The notes under the pieces are model-generated. The model did not search any database, was not told the origin of the DNA, and saw nothing but the letters and a program-made list of their open reading frames with translations. 64,000 nucleotides of DNA, from positions 496,001-560,000 of the forward strand of contig NZ_JAMSLR010000001.1 in assembly GCF_023806485.1 (NCBI RefSeq), given 5' to 3'. The position numbers were made by a program, and so were the translations under genes. The DNA comes from Thermalbibacter longus (GTDB taxonomy: Bacteria; Chloroflexota; Chloroflexia; Thermomicrobiales; Thermomicrobiaceae). This document shows, one piece after another, positions 1,840-40,095 of this stretch (position 1 is its first letter; every line of letters begins with the position of its first letter).

Positions 1840-3147
1840 TTACGGGCAGGGTAGCAGCTCGCGGCGCTGAGCTACTTGCTGGTAAACCTGGAGAACGGCG
1901 TTAGTGACCCCGTGCCAGGAGTAGCGGACGGCCGCCTGGCGGGCACCGACCTGCATGCGGGTGCGCAAGCGGTGATCGGCGAGCGCCCGGCGAATCGCCG
2001 CGGCTAGCGCCACGGGGTCGTCCGGTGGCACCAGCAGGCCAGAGACCTCGTCCTCGACCGTGAAGCGTAAGCCACCGACACGGCTTGCCACCACCGGCGT
2101 GCCGCACGCCATCGCCTCGACCGCGACGAGGCCGAACGACTCGTAGCGGGACGGCATCACGCAGAGATCTGCCGCATTGTAGAAGAGCGGCAGGATCGCT
2201 CGCGGCTGGGAGCCGAGGAATAGAATCGATCCCTCGATGCCTAGCCGTCTGGCCTCCCCGATGACCCGCTCGAGCGCGGGTTCGAACTGCGGCCCGGCAG
2301 CGCTCTCCGTGCGCCGGCCTCCGAGGAAGATCAGCAGCGGCACGGTGTCGCCGGGCTCGAGCGAGTCGAGCAGCCGGCGCCAGCCCTCGAACAGCGTGTC
2401 GATCCCTTTGACGGGGTCGATGCGTCCCACGAAGAGGACGAGTGGCCGGTCAGGCAGACCGAGCTGGTCACGGGCGGCATGCCGGTCAGCGGGGCGGAAG
2501 TGGTCGAGATCGACGCCGGGGGGAACTGTGCAGATCTTGGCGGGGTCCGCTTGGAGATCCCAGATCATCACCTCGCGCTCGTCTGGATTGGCGGCGATCA
2601 CAGCGTCGGCCAATCGCAGTAATCCGCGTTCGACCTGCAGGCGCAGTACCGGCTCGATCGAGCCTCTCGGAGAGAGTAGGTTCTTCAGGTCGCCCAGCGT
2701 GTGGAACATCTGGACGAGGGGAATGTCCCAGTAGCGTTTGAGCAGGTAACCGGCCCACCCGGAGAGCCAGTAGTGCGCGTGGATCAGCTCGTAGGGGTGG
2801 CCGTTACGGCTGATCTGGAAGGCCAGTTCCGTCACGAATTCCGGGAGGTGGCAGAAGATCTGGTCTTTGGGGATCGGAGCGAGTGGGCCGGCTTCCAGCG
2901 CGAAGACACGCACGCCGTAATCGGCTTCGACTACCGGCGGCTGCTCGGGGTCGGCCCGCCGGGTAAAGATGTCGACTTCAACGCCTCGGTGGGCCAGGTT
3001 TCGGCTCAGCTCCCGGATGTACACGTTCATTCCACCCGCCTCGCCGCTGCCTGGTTGGGCCAGCGGGGAGGTGTGGACGCTAATCATGGCGATGCGGCTC
3101 ACGACCGGCGGGGCGAAAAACGCGCGCTGCTCCTCCAGGGGTGCCAC
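1840..3147 (-). CDS. Glycosyltransferase family 4 (sucrose-phosphate synthase/MshA-like)
   Basis: A 435-residue GT-B glycosyltransferase. The N-terminal domain has SVHTSPLAQPGSGEAGGMNVYIRELSR, which is the donor/acceptor loop typical of GT4 enzymes such as MshA and sucrose synthases. The C-terminal Rossmann domain carries LFVGRIDPVKGIDTLFEGW and the nucleotide-sugar block PSRYESFGLVAVEAMACGTPVVAS with the EX7E arrangement. It transfers a sugar from an activated donor; the acceptor (sugar phosphate, inositol phosphate or lipid) is not determined. The GTG start is about 12 bases after GGGAGGGAGG, slightly long; an internal GTG 14 codons on is possible. Upstream lies a palindrome and hairpin (3246-3285) that may control it. 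Confidence 0.85.
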   Translation of the reverse strand: MAPLEEQRAFFAPPVVSRIAMISVHTSPLAQPGSGEAGGMNVYIRELSRNLAHRGVEVDIFTRRADPEQPPVVEADYGVRVFALEAGPLAPIPKDQIFCHLPEFVTELAFQISRNGHPYELIHAHYWLSGWAGYLLKRYWDIPLVQMFHTLGDLKNLLSPRGSIEPVLRLQVERGLLRLADAVIAANPDEREVMIWDLQADPAKICTVPPGVDLDHFRPADRHAARDQLGLPDRPLVLFVGRIDPVKGIDTLFEGWRRLLDSLEPGDTVPLLIFLGGRRTESAAGPQFEPALERVIGEARRLGIEGSILFLGSQPRAILPLFYNAADLCVMPSRYESFGLVAVEAMACGTPVVASRVGGLRFTVEDEVSGLLVPPDDPVALAAAIRRALADHRLRTRMQVGARQAAVRYSWHGVTNAVLQVYQQVAQRRELLPCP

Positions 3148-3991: not shown

Positions 3992-4065
3992 CGCCCGCGG
4001 AGGGACTCGAACCCCCGACCACAGGGCTTAGGACGCCCCGGCTCTATCCGCTGAGCTACGCGGGC
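3992..4065 (-). tRNA. tRNA-Arg (anticodon CCT)
   Basis: Read on the minus strand, the 7-bp acceptor stem GCCCGCG/CGCGGGC encloses a D arm (GCTC/GAGC), an anticodon arm GGGGC/GCCCT with loop GTCCTAA, and a T arm with GGTTCGAGTCC. The anticodon is CCT, decoding AGG. The discriminator base is G and the CCA end is not encoded (CCG follows). Length is 74 bases. A TATACT box lies about 20 bases upstream. Confidence 0.95.
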
Positions 4066-9871: not shown

Positions 9872-10145
9872 AGTGGCCGTGCTAGGCGGGGAGATAGCGG
9901 TGCCCTGTACCCGCAATCCGCTGTAGCGGGGCTGAACTCCCTCCCGAGGTCTGGCCCTGTGGGACTGCCCGGGTCACGTGGCGTGGATGGTTGGGTCCCA
10001 CGCGGCGAGGAGCCGTGAACCCGGTCAGGTCCGGAAGGAAGCAGCCGTAAGCGGTGAACCTCGGGTGACGTGGGGGCGCCTGGCCGGAGCTAACGAGCCC
10101 GGCGCAAGCCGGAGGACCGTGATCGACGGAGGGTGCACGGCCATC
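9872..10145 (+). ncRNA. ffs: Signal recognition particle RNA, large bacterial (6S/scRNA) type
   Basis: The invariant domain IV hairpin is at about 10022-10048 (GGTCAGGTCCGGAAGGAAGCAGC), containing the GGAA tetraloop and the internal loop bound by Ffh. The 5' part carries the Alu-domain signature (CTAGGCGGGGAGATAGCGGTGCC in pieces, then CCTGTACCCGCAATCCGCTGTAGCGGGG, 9882-9931). The ends pair: GGCCGTG (9875-9881) with CACGGCC (10136-10142), so the molecule is about 270 bases, the Bacillus-like long form with Alu domain rather than the short 4.5S form. A promoter and a terminator frame it. It targets membrane and secreted proteins with Ffh/FtsY. Confidence 0.95.
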
Positions 10146-32214: not shown

Positions 32215-32883
32215 ATGGTCTCGCGTCGGCGTTGGATCCTGCTCGCGATCGGGTTGGTCTCAGGGCTCGCGATCTCGCTGGCGCTGGCTCTGGCGCCCAG
32301 CCGGGCAATCCCCGGGGACGAACCGGCGGATCCGACCGGTTCGCAGACCTACACAGGGATGGCACTCGATGGCCCGGCGCCCGACTTTCAGCTCGTGGAT
32401 CAGCGGGGTGAGCTGGTGAAGCTCTCCGATTTTCGCGGCCGGATCGTCGTCCTCTCGTTCCTAGATCCATACTGCGACGACGTGTGCCCGTTGACCGTCC
32501 TGCATCTCCGGCGCGCCCAGCAGGCTCTGGGGGAGGAGGCGGATGGCGCCGTCTTCCTGGCAGTCAACGCGAATCCCCGAGCCACTGCGTTGCACGATGT
32601 AGCCGAGGCTACCCGGCACTGGGGCCTGGAGAGCATGCCCAACTGGTATTTTCTCACCGGCGAGGAGCACGAGCTGCGCGCGGTCTGGCAGGCATACTGG
32701 GTGGAGGTGAGCGTTGGCGCCGACGGCGACGCGACCCATACCCCTGGGGTTTTCCTGGTCGACCCGGCCGGGCGACTGCGGCATTACCTCTCGACGCCGT
32801 TCGAGGATGAGCGGTGGTCGGGGCCGCTGCTAAGTGAGCTCCTCGTGGATCACATCCGTCAGCTCCGCGAGGCTGAGGACTGA
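32215..32883 (+). CDS. SCO1/SenC-like thioredoxin-fold protein, membrane anchored
   Basis: A 222-residue protein with an N-terminal signal anchor (RRWILLAIGLVSGLAISLALAL). The thioredoxin-fold domain has FLDPYCDDVCPLTVLHL, i.e. Cys-x3-Cys as in SCO copper chaperones, and a later His in DATHTPGVFLVD as the third copper ligand. SCO proteins deliver copper to the CuA site of cytochrome oxidase or act as thiol-disulfide proteins outside the membrane. Last gene of the BlaI/M56 unit, 37 bases after the protease; the ribosome site is weak. Confidence 0.82.
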   Translation: MVSRRRWILLAIGLVSGLAISLALALAPSRAIPGDEPADPTGSQTYTGMALDGPAPDFQLVDQRGELVKLSDFRGRIVVLSFLDPYCDDVCPLTVLHLRRAQQALGEEADGAVFLAVNANPRATALHDVAEATRHWGLESMPNWYFLTGEEHELRAVWQAYWVEVSVGADGDATHTPGVFLVDPAGRLRHYLSTPFEDERWSGPLLSELLVDHIRQLREAED

Positions 32884-33514
32884 GAGCCGACCACGTTCTG
32901 CCACCACCACCGCATCTTCGAAGGGGATGGCAAATAGGGATGTCCCTGGTCGGTTGAGAGCAGGTCCACCACTCAACCGAAGGGGGGCGTCCCGATGCCG
33001 AAGCAGACCACAGCCACTACCAGTCTGCGCCGACAGCTCGTTGCGTTCCTCCTGGCTCACCTCGAGTCCTGAGCTCCCGAAGCGCCCCGGTGACCAGTTA
33101 CTCATCCCTCAGGCCGGGCAACGCGGGTGGACGGGCTGGCAGGCGGTGCACCTGCCAGTACGGACGGCTGCTGCCGGTAACCTGACGGATGATGGGCCGC
33201 CGCTGGTGGCTGGGGTAACACTGGGCTGGAGTGCCGCCTGGGCCAACGCAATGCTGGCTGACCGGCGGGCGCGCCGCTAGTGCCGTTCTGGCCACCCTCA
33301 CACCGGTCGATTCGCTGCCGGCGAGGCTCAGAAAAGGACCAAACCCCAAGGCCTTGCGCTGCACTACGTGTTTGAGGGGCAGCGAAGCCAGCAGGTCACG
33401 CTCAGGCAGTGTTGCTCAATTCGGAATCCGGGGACTGTGCAATACTGGCGGCGGCAACGCGTTCGACAGCGCTGGCATGAGTTATGGCTGATCGCTCAGT
33501 GAGGAGGACAAGCG
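32884..33514. other. Gene-poor stretch with a long imperfect hairpin
   Basis: No recognisable gene. A long hairpin is formed by 32937-32958 and 32972-32993: outer arms GGGATGTCCC/GGGGCGTCCC (about ten pairs with G-T pairs), a small internal loop, then the perfect inner stem TCGGTTGAG/CTCAACCGA with a 13-base loop. Directly after it, ATG 32995 opens a 25-codon frame (MPKQTTATTSLRRQLVAF then LLAHLES) without support. There is no run of T, so the hairpin is not an ordinary terminator. GAGGAGG before 33515 belongs to the next gene. Confidence 0.4.
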
Positions 33515-34096
33515 GTGGCCCGTCTGCCAGGTGTGCCGGACTCCGAGATCCCCCAGGAGATGCGCGAGATCGTCGAGGCGCAGCGGAAACATTACGGCTG
33601 CGTGTTGAACTCGGCGAGGCAACTCGCCTATGCTCCGCGCGTCGCGATCGGCGCCGCCGCGATGACGCGCGAGCTGGCTCGCTCGCGCCAGATCGAGCCT
33701 CGTTTGAGCGCGCTCCTCAACTTGCGGATAGCCGCCATCGTCGGCTGTGGCTTCTGACAAGACCTGCACGCTGCCGGCGGCAGTGCACTGGGAATTCCGG
33801 ACGAGATCATCCTGGCGGTACGCGATGGTCACTGACGGAATCTGGAGGCGCTGACTGAGGCGGAGCGGGTCGCCCTGGAGCTGGCGGAGCGCGTAACGGA
33901 CACGCCCGCGACGGTGAACGACGAGCTCTTCGAGCGCCTTCGCCATCACTTCACGGAGGCGCAGATCGTCGAGCTGGCGGCGATCTGTGCCTGGGAGAAC
34001 TACCGCGCGCGCTTCAACCGCGTGCTGGACATCGAGCCGCACGGCTTTTACCGGGTGGGTGATTCGAGTCGCGGGGAGGGCGGCCACTCGACGTGA
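33515..34096 (+). pseudogene. Carboxymuconolactone decarboxylase/AhpD-type frame with two in-frame UGA codons (selenoprotein candidate or pseudogene)
   Basis: One continuous frame from GTG 33515 (after GTGAGGAGG) to TGA 34094-34096 encodes 193 residues if UGA is read through at codon 81 (33755-33757) and codon 107 (33833-33835). Codons 78-85 read Cys-Gly-Phe-UGA-Gln-Asp-Leu-His, exactly the AhpD active site Cys-x-x-Cys-x-x-x-His with UGA at the second Cys. After it comes a stem-loop (33765-33787; CTGCC/GGCAG with loop GGC at +19 to +21), which fits the general description of bacterial SECIS elements. The rest (AGGSALGIPDEIILAVRDG, LTEAERVALELAERVT, AAICAWENYRARFNRVLDIE) is well preserved family sequence. 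The second UGA has no such explanation, so decay by nonsense mutations is equally possible. Confidence 0.6.
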
Positions 34097-34198
34097 TCGG
34101 AAACTGTGCCAGCGGGTGTACCATTGCGTGGAGGAGGCGACCTGACAGACCGGGTCATGCCTGGTAGCAGGATATCAGGCTCCAACGAGGGGGTGAGC

Positions 34199-35359
34199 AT
34201 GCGCGAGGTCGCTATCGTCGGCGCTGCAGAGACTCGATTTGGCAAGAGCGAGCTTTCGTACCGTGAGCTGGCGGTCGAGGCGGCCAGGGGGGCCCTGGAG
34301 GACGCCGGGGCGGAGCCGGGGCAGGTCGAGGCGCTCTTTCTCGGCAGCTACTCGCCCGGCACGTTCGTTCACCAGGAGCACGTGGCGCCGTTGATCGCCT
34401 CGGAGCTCGGGCTGTCGCATATTCCCAGCACCAGGGTAGAGAACGCCTGCGCCTCGGGAGCCACGGCGTTCGTCAGTGGAATGATGGCGATCGCGGCTGG
34501 GCTCTACGACGTGGTGCTGGTAGTGGGTGCCGAGAAGATGACGTCCACGCCGGTCGCCGAGACCACCCGGATCCTGGCCGAGGCGGCGGACTGGGAGAAC
34601 GAGAGCAAGGTCGGCCTGACCTTCCCCGGCGCCTTCGCGCTGATGGCCCAAGCCTACCTGCACAAGTACGGCTATGGCCGTGAGATCCTCGATGCAGTCG
34701 CAATCAAGAATCACGCTAACGCCCTGGCCAACCCCTACGCCCAGTTCCACAAGGCGATCACCGCCGAGGACATCGCGAACTCTCCGATGGTGGCAGATCC
34801 CTTGACCCTCTACGACTGCTCGCCGATCAGCGACGGGGCAGCCGCCATCCTGCTGGTGGCCGGCGACGCGGCCCGCAACTTCGCCAAGCCGGCGGTGCGG
34901 GTGCTCGGCTTCGGGCAGGCCTCCGACTCGCTGGCGCTCTACCGGCGGCCGGATCTGACGACGCTGCCGGCAGCTCGGCAGGCGGCCCAGCGCGCCTACC
35001 GGATGGCCGGCGTGTCGCCCCGGGACATTAGCCTGGCTGAAGTGCACGACTGCTTCACCATCGCCGAGATCATCGCGACCGAAGACCTCGGCTTCTTCGA
35101 GCCCGGCGAAGGCGGGGAAGCGGCCAGAGCCGGCGCCACCAGCCGCGACGGCCAGATCCCGGTCAACCCCAGCGGCGGACTGAAGGCGAAGGGTCACCCG
35201 GTAGGCGCCACCGGAGTCGGCCAGCTCGTCGAGGCCACCTTCCAGTTGCGGGGCGAGGCGGGCGGCCGCCAGATCGACGGCGTGGAGCTGGCGTTGACCC
35301 ACAACGTGGGCGGTTCCGGTGCGACCTGTGTGGTCACGATCCTGGGAAGGGCAGCCTGA
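34199..35359 (+). CDS. Thiolase family protein (SCP-x/acetyl-CoA acetyltransferase-like)
   Basis: A 386-residue thiolase. The nucleophile region is VENACASGATAFVSG (active Cys), and the C-terminal blocks HDCFTIAEIIATEDLG and NPSGGLKAKGHPVGATGVGQLVEATFQLRG carry the catalytic His residues. The variant HDCF plus KGHP is typical of the SCP2-thiolase/lipid-transfer subgroup. It cleaves or forms 3-ketoacyl-CoA. ATG 34199 was chosen because GAGGGGGTG precedes it and the conserved REVAIVGAAETRFGK starts there. Its stop overlaps the start of a DUF35 OB-fold gene, the usual partner of this thiolase subgroup. Confidence 0.9.
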   Translation: MREVAIVGAAETRFGKSELSYRELAVEAARGALEDAGAEPGQVEALFLGSYSPGTFVHQEHVAPLIASELGLSHIPSTRVENACASGATAFVSGMMAIAAGLYDVVLVVGAEKMTSTPVAETTRILAEAADWENESKVGLTFPGAFALMAQAYLHKYGYGREILDAVAIKNHANALANPYAQFHKAITAEDIANSPMVADPLTLYDCSPISDGAAAILLVAGDAARNFAKPAVRVLGFGQASDSLALYRRPDLTTLPAARQAAQRAYRMAGVSPRDISLAEVHDCFTIAEIIATEDLGFFEPGEGGEAARAGATSRDGQIPVNPSGGLKAKGHPVGATGVGQLVEATFQLRGEAGGRQIDGVELALTHNVGGSGATCVVTILGRAA

Positions 35360-35606: not shown

Positions 35607-36242
35607 TCAGATCGGCGGGCCGCTCAGGCAGAGCTCGCGCCCAAGCTGCACGGCGGCTGCCAGTGAGAGCAAGCCGCGGGCGTCCGCCTCGTCCCCTGCC
35701 CGGCAGCAGTAGAAGCCGATCTCCGCGCAGACCCCATCGCGCAGCGAGCGGCTGAGGTCGGGTGCCACGAGCGAGAGGGAGAGATCGGGGTGGGAAGCGC
35801 TCCGGAGCTCGCCGGCCTCGATCTCCAGCCAGATCGGCGCCCCACAGGCGGCGCAGCGACTCTCGACGCGGGCGTCTGCCCGGAGTCCGGCCGGGATGCC
35901 CACGGCATCCAGCGCGCACCAGGTGTAGAGCTGCCGGCCGTTGAGGAGCAGGCGGTGCCTGGACGGGATCAGCGACAGCCCGCCGGCTGCCACGATGGCC
36001 TCCCTGCGCTCGTCGAGCGTGAGACGCCCCTGCCCGGCCATGCGCTCGATGAGCTCTCGGACGTCCTCGCGCGTCATGCCGAGCGCGACCTGCGCCTCGG
36101 CGAGCGGCAGGGAGCGCCCAGCCGCGATTGCCTCGAACGCGAGGCAGGTCAACCGGTATTCGACCGTCTGGCGCTGCTGGGCCGCGCAGACCAGCCAGCG
36201 CTGCGCGAGAGCGCCCTGAGCGCCGGGATCCGCATGCGTCAT
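35607..36242 (-). CDS. merB: Alkylmercury (organomercurial) lyase family protein, MerB-like
   Basis: A 211-residue protein. The N-terminal 90 residues hold a winged-helix-like region (LPLAEAQVALGMTREDVRELIERMAGQGRL), as in MerB. The catalytic set of MerB (Cys96, Asp99, Cys159) corresponds to Cys109 and Asp112 in LYTWCALDAVG and Cys172 in DGVCAEIGFY; all three are offset by the same 13 positions. CAACGAPIWLEIEAG matches the MerB core. It would cleave carbon-mercury bonds, giving Hg(II) for MerA encoded across the divergent promoter. Sequence is otherwise divergent, so substrate range is uncertain. Confidence 0.75.
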   Translation of the reverse strand: MTHADPGAQGALAQRWLVCAAQQRQTVEYRLTCLAFEAIAAGRSLPLAEAQVALGMTREDVRELIERMAGQGRLTLDERREAIVAAGGLSLIPSRHRLLLNGRQLYTWCALDAVGIPAGLRADARVESRCAACGAPIWLEIEAGELRSASHPDLSLSLVAPDLSRSLRDGVCAEIGFYCCRAGDEADARGLLSLAAAVQLGRELCLSGPPI

Positions 36243-36765
36243 GTCGTCCCCCTTCCGTTCGAGCCCGGGATACTACCGCCCTGCGAGGTCACGCCCGCAG
36301 CAGCGCAACAGGGCACATAGTCCAGAGAAGCTGGGGAGAGGCGCCACTGGCCGCGCGAGCGGCGGCACAAGTATACGCCGCTTCCGATGTGTCTGCCTGC
36401 GTGGCGCGTGATGAAGGTAACCAGGCTGGAGCAAGAGCTCCTCGCCGGCGCCGGCTTCCGAATAGCTTACGCGGGGCTTCTGCCCCGTGCTGACGTTAGA
36501 AAATGGAATAATCATTCGCCCCTACCTTTCAGGGACTAGCCGGCGGCTCGGCTGCCGAGCCTGGGCTGGCAACCCAGGGCCAGCCCGCCACGACGCCATC
36601 ATCTGCAGCCTGTACGAAATCGCCACTGGAGTGCATCGGTTCGATGTCGCCATCCTTGCAGTTTAAGCGAGCCCCTGAACGTGATCGCTCTTGGAATAGA
36701 TATACGGATGTGAGAATATAAATGTCGACGAACCTGCGGGACGCGGTGCCGGAGGAGCCAGGCAG
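36243..36765. promoter_or_regulatory. Divergent control region between merB and the merA-side genes
   Basis: Two promoter-like sites point outward. For merB (minus): TATACT at 36375-36370 with a weak AGGCAG 17 bases upstream. For the plus strand: TTGGAA (36691-36696), 18 bases, AATATA (36715-36720). The second site lies in an unusually AT-rich 35-base patch (ATAGATATAC ... GAATATAAAT, 36695-36722), a likely operator for the ArsR-type regulator encoded at 39007. No classical MerR operator was recognised, and no gene is supported in the region. Confidence 0.5.
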
Positions 36766-37347
36766 GTGACGCGCTCGATCGGCAACCAAGGACACCGAAA
36801 GTACCAGCACTGGACGGTCCCGCTCGACGCGGCGGCCGCGCTCGGGTTCGCGGCGCTCAGCGCCCTCGCCTGCTGCGGCTGGCTGGTGATCCAGTGGCTC
36901 TCCCTCGCGCTCTACGCCGTCGGCGGCGCGGCGGCGTTTCGCGTCCTCATCCGGTACGAGGTGGAGATCCTGCTCGCGCTCGGCGGGGAGCAACTCGTCG
37001 CCGCGCGCCTCGCCCGCGACCAGATCGGCCGGCTCGTGAACGTGGCTCTCGGAGCGCTCGCCATCGCCCTCGGCGCGCTCCGGCTGCTGTGGGAGTTTCG
37101 CAGGAGTTCCGTTCTGGGAGCGTATCCGCTGTACGTTGTGTTCGTGCACCGGCAGCAGATTCTGCTCGTGGCCCTCGGACTAGCCCTTGCGCTGCGGGTA
37201 GCCGGCCCGCTCGTCGCCCGGCGGCAGTCCGCGACCAGTGAGTGCTGCGTTCCCGAACGGGGTAAGGCGGCATCGATGGGCGTGCAGCGTTTCGTGACGG
37301 AAGGCGATTATGAAGAAGCAAGCACGAGCCTATCGCATGGCCATTGA
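36766..37347 (+). CDS. Membrane protein of the mercury cluster (transporter-like, function unproven)
   Basis: A 193-residue protein with four likely membrane helices: about residues 18-37 (AAALGFAALSALACCGWLVI), 38-60 (QWLSLALYAVGGAAAFRVL), 85-105 and 130-150 (ILLVALGLALALRVAGPLVA). A vicinal Cys-Cys pair (ALACCGWL) lies in the first helix, as in the mercuric transporter MerT, and another pair (SECCVPER) is near the C-terminus. These pairs and its place directly before merA suggest Hg(II) uptake to MerA, but overall similarity to MerT is not evident. GTG after GGAGGAG; the end overlaps merA by 38 bases. Confidence 0.6.
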   Translation: MTRSIGNQGHRKYQHWTVPLDAAAALGFAALSALACCGWLVIQWLSLALYAVGGAAAFRVLIRYEVEILLALGGEQLVAARLARDQIGRLVNVALGALAIALGALRLLWEFRRSSVLGAYPLYVVFVHRQQILLVALGLALALRVAGPLVARRQSATSECCVPERGKAASMGVQRFVTEGDYEEASTSLSHGH

Positions 37348-38968
37348 CGGCATGACCTGTTCGCACTGCGAAGAGACCGTCGAGCGGGCGCTGCGAGCCC
37401 AGGGCGCTCAGGGCGTCCGGGCTGACTGGAGGCACGGCGAAGTCACGTTCACCCTGGTCGACGGCGTCGACCTCTCTACCCTGCGGAGCGCCGTGCGCGC
37501 CACCGGCTATAGACCGGGCGAGGTCACCGAGCAGCCCAGCCCTGAGCGGGCGCCGATCACGTTCTCCTCCTCCGAGGCGGATACTGACCTGGTGATTATC
37601 GGCGGCGGGTCAGCGGCGTTCAGCGCGGCAATCACGGCCACCGAGCTCGGCGCGCGCGTCATCATGATCGAGGAGGGCACGATCGGTGGCACCTGCGTCA
37701 ACGTGGGCTGCGTGCCCAGCAAGTTCCTGCTCCGGGCGGCGGAGGTCTACCATGAGGCGGGCCACCACGGCTACGCTGGCGTGCAAACGGCGGCGCTCGG
37801 CGTGGAGCTCGACCGGCTAGTCGCGCAGAAGCGCGAGCTGTCCGGCGAGCTGCGGCGCGAGAAGTACGAGGAACTGATCGAGTACTACGGCTGGGAGCTG
37901 ATCCGTGGCCGCGCTCGCTTCATCGGCCCCGATGCGGTGGCGGTCGGTGACCGGGTGGTACGGGCCCGCGCTTTCTTGATCGCCACTGGAGCCAGGCCAA
38001 CTGTGCCGGCGATCCCCGGCCTCGAGGAGGCTGGCTATCTGACGAGCACGAGCGCCATGGAGCTGGACCGGCCGCCGAGCTCGCTCGGCGTGATCGGGGC
38101 CGGCTACGTGGCGCTGGAGCTGGGGCAGGTCGTCCGCTCGCTGGGCAGCGAGGTCACGCTCGTGCAACGCCGGCCGCGCCTGCTCCCGGACTACGAGCCC
38201 GAGGTCGCCGAGGCGATGGGCGCAGCCCTCGGCCGGCTGGGGACGACCGTGCTGACCGGGTCGCGGGTCCTGCGGGTCGAGCGCACGCGGCAGGGCCGCC
38301 GGCTGGTGGTGCTCCGGGACGGGCGCGAGGAGATGCTCGAGGTCGAGCAGATCCTCGTGGCGGCCGGCCGCCGACCGAACACCGAAGGGCTTGACCTGGA
38401 GCGCGCCGGCGTCGCCGTGGACGAGCGCGGCGTCCCGGTGCTGGACGAGGCGCTGCGCACGACCAACCCCCGGGTCTGGGTAGCCGGCGATGTCACGCTC
38501 GCGCCGCAGTTCGTGTACGTGGCCGCCTACCAGGGGCGGCTCGCCGCGCGGAACGCCGTGCTGGACCTGGAAGAGCCGGCCGACCTCTCGGCGGTGCCGG
38601 GGGTGATCTTCACCGACCCGCAGGTGGCCACGGTCGGGCTGACGCGAGCGGAGGCGGGCCGACAGGGCTACCGCGTCGAGAGCGCCTTCGTGCCGGCCCA
38701 AGCAATCGCCCGGGCGCGCGTCGACCTGGCTCCCGAGGGCGGAGTGGTGATGGTGACCGACGGGGAGAGCGGACGCGTCCTTGGAGTCCAGGCGATCGGG
38801 AGGCATGCCGGCGAGATGATCTACGCCGCCACGCTGGCGGTGAAGCACCGGCTGACGGCCGGCGATCTGGTCGAGAGCTTCGCGCCCTACCTGACGATGG
38901 CCGAAGGCCTGCGGCTGGCGGCGCTGGCGTTCGAGCGAGACGTGGCGAAGCTCTCCTGCTGCGCGTGA
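37310..38968 (+). CDS. merA: Mercuric reductase with N-terminal metal-binding domain
   Basis: A 552-residue flavoprotein disulfide reductase. Residues 10-70 are an HMA domain with Cys17 and Cys20 (GMTCSHCEETVERAL). FAD motif LVIIGGGSAAFSAAI; redox-active pair Cys129/Cys134 in GGTCVNVGCVPSKFLLR; NAD(P)H domain LGVIGAGYVALELGQVVRSLG; and the C-terminal Cys550-Cys551 (KLSCCA) that hand Hg(II) to the active site. It reduces Hg(II) to volatile Hg(0) with NADPH in the cytoplasm. The start at 37310 follows GGAAGG. Confidence 0.96.
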   Translation: MKKQARAYRMAIDGMTCSHCEETVERALRAQGAQGVRADWRHGEVTFTLVDGVDLSTLRSAVRATGYRPGEVTEQPSPERAPITFSSSEADTDLVIIGGGSAAFSAAITATELGARVIMIEEGTIGGTCVNVGCVPSKFLLRAAEVYHEAGHHGYAGVQTAALGVELDRLVAQKRELSGELRREKYEELIEYYGWELIRGRARFIGPDAVAVGDRVVRARAFLIATGARPTVPAIPGLEEAGYLTSTSAMELDRPPSSLGVIGAGYVALELGQVVRSLGSEVTLVQRRPRLLPDYEPEVAEAMGAALGRLGTTVLTGSRVLRVERTRQGRRLVVLRDGREEMLEVEQILVAAGRRPNTEGLDLERAGVAVDERGVPVLDEALRTTNPRVWVAGDVTLAPQFVYVAAYQGRLAARNAVLDLEEPADLSAVPGVIFTDPQVATVGLTRAEAGRQGYRVESAFVPAQAIARARVDLAPEGGVVMVTDGESGRVLGVQAIGRHAGEMIYAATLAVKHRLTAGDLVESFAPYLTMAEGLRLAALAFERDVAKLSCCA

Positions 38969-39006
38969 GTCGCCAGGTGGGGCAAGAGCTGGTGAGGAGC
39001 TGAGCT

Positions 39007-39444
39007 ATGGGAACGCATGAGGAGATGGATCTGATCACCGGGGAGACGCCGCGGGGCGGCGAGGTCGACCAGGGCGCCCTGCACCCCCGGTTGGGACGCC
39101 GCTTCGCGCGCCGGGTCGAGCCACAGGAGGCGCGCCGGCAGGCCGAGTTACTGGCGAAGTACTTTCGCGGGCTTACCGACGTGACCCGGCTGCGCATCCT
39201 CGACCTGCTGATCCGGGAGGGCGAGCTGAACGTGAGCGAGCTCGTCGAGCGGTTGGATCAGCCGCAGGGGCGCGTCTCGTCGCACCTCGCCTGCTTGCGG
39301 GACTGCGGCTACGTGTCGGCCCGCCGCGAGGGGAAGTTCGTCTATTACCGGGTCGCCGACCAGCGGGTGCCGCTGCTCCTGGCGCTGGCCAAGGACATGC
39401 TGGCCGACCACGCTGAAGCGATCATCGCGTGCACGCGGATGTAG
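39007..39444 (+). CDS. ArsR/SmtB-family metalloregulator of the mercury cluster
   Basis: A 145-residue regulator with a winged helix (RLRILDLLIREGELNVSELVERL, then RVSSHLACLRDCGYVSARREGKFVYYRVADQ). The recognition-helix Cys (HLACLRDCGY, two cysteines five apart) and a further Cys in the last helix (IIACTRM) give a possible thiolate site for Hg(II), recalling CmtR and the ArsR-type MerR of Streptomyces. It is expected to repress the mer genes until Hg(II) binds. The N-terminal 45 residues are charged and not conserved in my memory of the family. Between merA and the transporter-like genes. Confidence 0.88.
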   Translation: MGTHEEMDLITGETPRGGEVDQGALHPRLGRRFARRVEPQEARRQAELLAKYFRGLTDVTRLRILDLLIREGELNVSELVERLDQPQGRVSSHLACLRDCGYVSARREGKFVYYRVADQRVPLLLALAKDMLADHAEAIIACTRM

Positions 39445-39461
39445 CGCGAGGGTGAAGGCCT

Positions 39462-39701
39462 ATGAAGCGATGGGCCCTCGCTATCATCGGCGCCCTTACC
39501 TGCCCCTGTCACCTGCCGCTCTACCTCGCCCTTCTCGGTGGCACGGCCATCGGGGGAGCGCTGGCGGCTCACCAGCTCTGGCTCTTCGCAGCGATGAGCC
39601 TCATCTTCACCGGGGCGATCGCTGGGTTGCTGCGCGGCCGCCTATATCCTGCCGGAGCCAGCCGGCGCGGGCCTCGGATTCACCGCCCGGCTCGTCGATG
39701 A
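39462..39701 (+). CDS. Small membrane protein with CPCH motif (MerC/MerE-like)
   Basis: A 79-residue protein with two helices. The first contains ALTCPCHLPLYLALLGGTAIGGAL, where Cys-Pro-Cys-His in a membrane helix is the mark of a small family of mercury-resistance membrane proteins; the second is QLWLFAAMSLIFTGAIAGLL. The last 15 residues are Arg/Pro-rich and may result from a frameshift near 39632 (see the next gene). It probably moves Hg(II) or a mercury-thiol complex across the membrane. ATG after GGTGAAGG-like sequence, 17 bases after the regulator. Confidence 0.65.
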   Translation: MKRWALAIIGALTCPCHLPLYLALLGGTAIGGALAAHQLWLFAAMSLIFTGAIAGLLRGRLYPAGASRRGPRIHRPARR

Positions 39702-40095
39702 CACGGGGTTCCACTTTCACGAGCACCGAGGCCCGGTGGTGGCGATCTACACGATGGCGGGCTGGTGCCTCTCCTGTATCCCTGAAGCCCAGGCATGGGC
39801 GAAGCTTTATCCGGAGTATCACCAGCGCGGGGTTGACGTGCTCCTGCTCTCGATCGATCCATCCGACACGCCCGCCACGCTGGCGAACTTTTCGAATCTG
39901 GCAGGTCGCGAGGTGGCGACCTTGCCCTGGGCCGTCGACAAGGACCAGGCCCTCACGCGGCTACTCGACGTGCGCACGCTCGACCAGACGATTATCATCG
40001 ACCGGCGGGGGCGAGTCGCCTACGTGGACTACGGGCCGACGTCGCCTGATCAGTTACGGCGGGTACTCGATCAGTTGCTGCAGGGGGAACTGTGA
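39598..40095 (+). CDS. Thioredoxin-like (TlpA/redoxin) protein, 5' end disrupted
   Basis: The thioredoxin fold is clear: RLVDDTGFHFHEHRG (about 39688-39732), VVAIYTMAGWCLSCIPEAQAWAKL with the Cys-x2-Cys site WCLSC, LLLSIDPSDTPATLANF and the cis-Pro region DQTIIIDRRGRVAYVDYG. The first canonical start in frame is GTG 39736, in the middle of the first strand; the frame is open upstream to 39598 and continues AAAYILPEPAGAGLGF, like the end of a signal anchor. The start of that anchor (MSLIFTGAIAGLL at 39594) is in the neighbouring frame, so one extra base near 39632 may have broken the gene. It would deliver electrons to, or receive them from, the CcdA-like protein next door. Confidence 0.6.
   Translation, partial: ASSSPGRSLGCCAAAYILPEPAGAGLGFTARLVDDTGFHFHEHRGPVVAIYTMAGWCLSCIPEAQAWAKLYPEYHQRGVDVLLLSIDPSDTPATLANFSNLAGREVATLPWAVDKDQALTRLLDVRTLDQTIIIDRRGRVAYVDYGPTSPDQLRRVLDQLLQGEL

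Follow-up and report, generated by a model that had tools for sequence, protein, structure and literature searches.

The gene and its surroundings

The window, by which we mean the whole 64,000-nucleotide stretch of the Thermalbibacter longus genome that was analysed, contains at 33515-34096 (forward strand) a single frame with a GTG start, 193 codons and a TGA stop, which is intact except for two in-frame TGA triplets, at codons 81 and 107. The first-pass annotation, made from the letters of the window, had described one 193-codon frame with a ribosome site and two UGA codons, and was right on all of these points. The features referred to below are as follows.

32953-33433, no strand assigned: 481 bases upstream of the gene, with about 45 bases in their place in the nearest relative (L047) (locus comparison, genome search)
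33502-33507, forward: AGGAGG, a Shine-Dalgarno sequence 7 nt ahead of the GTG codon (sequence)
33515-34096, forward: predicted AhpD-like selenoprotein gene of the CMD superfamily (peroxidase-related/YciW-like), with 193 codons and a stop (domain matches, relatives, fold)
33746-33748, forward: TGT codon of Cys78, which is the first redox residue in CxxU (sequence, alignment)
33755-33757, forward: UGA81, very probably a selenocysteine codon, at the active-site Cys position (21 aligned relatives with UGA, six with Cys)
33770-33784, forward: putative apical hairpin of a bacterial SECIS, GCUGCC-GGC-GGCAGU, with the loop starting 18 nt after UGA81 (conservation and model scoring)
33833-33835, forward: UGA107, where a Trp codon, TGG, reads TGA in this genome alone, most likely a premature stop or a consensus error (alignment, hairpin scoring)

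To either side of each UGA the codon usage looks like that of coding sequence, which is a weak sign, since other frames in the window score alike; a codon-usage scan of the window for further frames with UGA read-through gave weak candidates only, and a scan of 32800-34250 for promoters and terminators found none.

The read-through protein belongs to the CMD/AhpD superfamily, scoring 27.8 bits with the Pfam CMD domain (PF02627, cut-off 23). Its best NCBIfam match, over the full length, is NF053654 (GroundWater_YciW, 'YciW-related (seleno)protein'; E 2.5e-42), with a score of 144.6 bits that lies below the equivalog cut-off of 310, while TIGR01926 ('peroxidase-related enzyme') gives 42.9 bits, under its curated cut-off of 81.8. 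With NF053654 the aligned relatives range from 98 to 320 bits, and one of them from the same class (L032) exceeds the cut-off (319.6 vs 310) and has the same UGA column and hairpin as the window gene. An AlphaFold model, computed with 22 relatives alongside the window protein and with UGA entered as Cys, is all helical (mean pLDDT 92.5) and places residue 81 just past Cys78, near the start of a helix beginning at residue 79. The best PDB match of the model is 2prr, a peroxidase-related protein with the AhpD core (TM 0.84); this AhpD-like all-helical fold is common to the two over nearly the whole length of the window protein, but their identity is 21%, and the function of 2prr is uncharacterised according to its deposited title.

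The active-site motif of the window protein, Cys78-Gly-Phe-U81-Gln-Asp-Leu-His85, is the Cys-x-x-UGA-x-x-x-His that had been recognized earlier as matching AhpD; the match stands for this sequence, but the His is not general, being found in the window protein and four near relatives, whereas most of the Sec relatives have Asn. The main group of the relatives differs from these proteins in having Asn85 and in the loop just before column 107, which is two residues longer in the window protein and the four near relatives. The same genome also contains a Cys paralogue (G000:C2:1891-2382), 29% identical, with a CAFC motif at the matching place, i.e., a CxxC protein whose gene is without the UGA.

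A SCO1/SenC gene (32215-32883) adjoins the selenoprotein gene. Compared with the nearest relative (G117, locus L047), the window has about 436 more bases upstream of the gene, in a stretch that matches no known element and shows no clear features of coding sequence or of mobile elements; a repeated mobile element is not supported as their origin, since they occur in a single copy in the genome. Further along the window lies a mercury resistance-like cluster (35607-40095), with a MerB alkylmercury lyase domain (35607-36242, reverse strand), an unassigned protein that is likely membrane-bound and has an ACC motif (36766-37347), a MerA-like reductase with an HMA domain (37310-38968), a regulator of the ArsR family (39007-39444) and a protein with a redoxin domain (39736-40095). 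A large bacterial SRP RNA (9877-10140) and a tRNA (3992-4065, reverse strand) are found elsewhere in the window. Beyond the genus the gene order is not maintained, so the neighbours give no functional clue.

UGA81 and the hairpin downstream of it

The selA, selB, selC and selD genes, which the first-pass annotation had named as the ones to look for, are all present in the host genome (3.63 Mb, 99.9% complete): tRNA-Sec is found at 75.3 bits against a cut-off of 47, with ARAGORN concurring, SelA at 531 bits and SelD at 376 bits, and SelB is likewise encoded. The SelD gene itself has TGA within C-A-G-U-A-G-K (read by eye), and its U-A-G-K fits UxxK, the site of Sec-containing SelD (PMC13188914). 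Going by gene content, the host organism is able to decode selenocysteine.

A search of 158 genomes of the class gave a match in 71, and 29 sequences, including that of the window, were aligned; one of them, L036, is a remnant without the codon-81 region. At column 81, where an alignment of homologues had been proposed, there is either UGA, in 22 of the 29 (the window gene and 21 relatives, L017-L035, L038 and L040), or Cys, in six, and no other residue. Cys78 is kept in every row that reaches its column except L038, which has Arg. Eleven further distant matches were read separately, and at the corresponding motif nine have UGA and two have Cys. Two findings that the first-pass annotation had named as refuting, a genome lacking the Sec machinery and homologues having neither Cys nor Sec at codon 81, were thus looked for and did not turn up. 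Together with the Sec machinery, these homologues support the earlier suggestion of a CxxU member of the AhpD-like proteins, and UGA81 is very probably a selenocysteine codon.

A second, more distant CMD/AhpD-like group with CxxU encoded by UGA is found in other genomes of the class (L040, L065, L066, L069-L071, L073-L075), and hairpin-like sequences follow the UGA in several of its genes, e.g. TCCGCCTTGTTAAGGCGG. The existence of this group indicates that Sec use in the superfamily is widespread in the class.

The stem-loop that had been noticed after UGA81 (CTGCC/GGCAG, loop GGC) consists of GCTGCC (33770-33775), the GGC loop (33776-33778) and GGCAGT (33779-33784). The bSECIS model calls for a loop of 3-9 nt with G in the first two positions, located 16-37 nt after the UGA, on a stem of 4-16 bp with a minimum free energy of -7.5 or lower (PMC13188914), and the sequence fits it, with a gap of 18 nt, a stem of 6-7 bp, the 3-nt GGC loop and -9.4 kcal/mol. 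In a single sequence this proves little, because 92 of the 1430 TGA triplets in the window satisfy the model equally well by chance, and the minimum-free-energy fold of the 48 nt past either UGA is no better than that of shuffled sequences (z -0.57 for UGA81). The evidence lies in conservation, and here the hairpin is both retained and covarying: in the 21 sequences whose alignment is gap-free in this region, 95.2% of cells are paired, and two-sided changes occur at three of the six pairs (G-C to U-A in L035, U-A to C-G in L029, C-G to A-U in L026). This result was matched in 1 of 500 shuffles, which ignore relatedness, and sliding the stem partner drops the pairing to 21-78%. The third base of the Ala86 codon pairs within the stem, and 18 of the 21 sequences use GCT for this codon, vs 6.6% of Ala codons elsewhere in those genes (binomial 6e-19, relatedness ignored). 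Four relatives have a mismatch beside the loop, and some miss the bSECIS energy limit under strict contiguous-stem scoring.

UGA107 and the state of the sequenced copy

The four nearest relatives (83, 61, 60 and 53% identity) all have TGG at codon 107, and none has UGA; in the rest of the aligned set the column holds Trp, Tyr, Asp, Arg or Pro, with neither UGA nor Cys in any row, and in this set UGA107 does not align with a redox-active Cys or Sec. The best model-type hairpin past it reaches -5.5 kcal/mol, which misses the bSECIS limit and is no stronger than what follows the TGG codons of some relatives. The first-pass annotation had been troubled by this second UGA, and with good reason: it is private to the host genome, replaces a Trp codon and is without a SECIS-like element.

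Compared with its nearest relative in G117, the gene shows Ks 0.61, Ka 0.10 and Ka/Ks 0.16, with no gaps, which is within the range of the surrounding genes (Ka/Ks 0.05-0.27); over codons 108-181 the ratio is about 0.23. The value of 0.16 indicates that the gene was under constraint until recently. Neutrality since the split from G117 is unlikely (P 0.002, calculated on outgroup-conserved sites, which somewhat biases the test), and relaxed constraint in the window lineage is not significant, with private changes of 9 nonsynonymous (UGA107 included) and 12 synonymous vs 3 and 7 in G117 (Fisher P 0.70). Continued constraint implies that UGA107 is recent, or absent from the real genome. Judging from these comparisons, the most likely origin is a nonsense mutation of very recent date or an error in the consensus, a second recoding being much less likely.

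In one congener (G116; L036, L048) the DNA corresponding to 32251-33873 is missing (junction in L048 near 3073-3082), a deletion that leaves very little of the SCO1-like gene and cuts away the 5' two thirds of the selenoprotein gene, and the remnant of the latter has TGA at a further Trp. The loss of most of the gene in this congener indicates that it is dispensable in the genus. In another genome, G115, no match to the gene was found in an assembly that is 81% complete.

Our preferred reading, to which we assign a probability of about 0.9 from the sequence comparisons, is a one-Sec AhpD-like CxxU gene, in which UGA81 would be decoded as selenocysteine by means of the hairpin and UGA107 is a private change. 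The opposite reading, a gene decayed long ago in which both UGA codons act as plain stops and no selenocysteine is involved, can appeal to two stops within one frame, but it is contradicted by UGA81 being conserved, along with a covarying hairpin, among 21 aligned relatives and by the whole Sec system in the genome; prolonged neutral drift would also have left further stops and raised Ka/Ks well beyond 0.16, and we consider this reading extremely improbable. Recoding of both codons, giving a two-Sec protein, or one in which UGA107 is read as Trp or Sec at a low level, would be in keeping with the Sec machinery and with constraint that persists beyond codon 107, but no relative has UGA or Cys in that column, the hairpin there falls outside the model limit and the site has no redox motif, which makes it very unlikely. 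If UGA107 were decoded, the window gene would stand alone in the aligned set in having two recoded UGA codons, the second without a standard SECIS.

Within the preferred reading, UGA107 can be taken in two ways. There is about an even chance that it is a real nonsense mutation and the gene a fresh pseudogene of a one-Sec selenoprotein. TGG to TGA takes one transition, a single deletion took SCO1 and the 5' two thirds of the gene in the congener, whose remnant has its own TGA at another Trp, the 436 extra bases separate the gene from its upstream neighbour, and a simulated short neutral period (0.02-0.1 substitutions per site) yields one new stop and no more in 21-32% of runs; on the other hand, there is no frameshift, and the private changes show no significant relaxation. 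A sequencing, assembly or strain-consensus error, with the gene an intact one-Sec selenoprotein as in the relatives, is a substantial possibility, though one we would put below even odds. The frame is otherwise intact, constrained and gap-free against the nearest relative, and past codon 107 it is still coding-like and keeps its conserved positions, but single-base consensus errors in short-read data are rare and the congener shows that the gene can be lost.

A probable divergent branch of the CxxU AhpD-like selenoproteins

The existence of AhpD-like selenoproteins, which the first-pass annotation had taken as known, is documented: 27 CxxU sequences of COG2128 were described in the Sargasso Sea selenoproteome in 2005 (PMC1088965), a 2026 review puts AhpD-like selenoproteins under TIGR01926, beside CMD-like and AhpD-related CxxU families (PMC13188914), and the family is included in review tables (PMC9312934, PMC13188914). 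The window gene resembles COG2128/TIGR01926 in its CMD/AhpD superfamily, CxxU active site, SECIS-like hairpin past the UGA and Cys homologues elsewhere, and differs in its divergent sequence and private second UGA. By sequence scores it represents a divergent branch near NF053654 and TIGR01926, a member of neither by the curated cut-offs. By analogy of fold, motif, SECIS and machinery, its predicted mode of action is that of the known CxxU AhpD-like selenoproteins of the same superfamily.

The gene would belong to an AhpD-like (COG2128/peroxidase-related) thiol redox lineage with selenocysteine at the place of the second Cys of CxxC. SelB with Sec-tRNA-Sec would read UGA81 as Sec, guided by the hairpin 18 nt downstream, and the all-helical AhpD-like fold would carry the Cys78-Sec81 couple, which, going by the family, may reduce hydroperoxides or similar electrophiles. 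UGA107 would stand outside this design, as a G-to-A change that has hit a Trp codon in this genome alone, and the sequenced copy would be either very recently broken, giving a 106-residue fragment even with UGA81 read through, or affected by a miscalled base. If UGA107 is real and unread, no full-length protein is made from the present copy.

CxxU AhpD-like selenoproteins have been known since 2005, and what the window gene adds to them is a divergent branch from Thermomicrobiaceae-related bacteria, in which an RNA signal is clearly seen to be kept inside a coding region. It also illustrates routes by which such a gene may be lost, by deletion in one congener and by a new stop, if real, in the window genome. 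Gene callers that take UGA as a stop will truncate this gene at codon 80.
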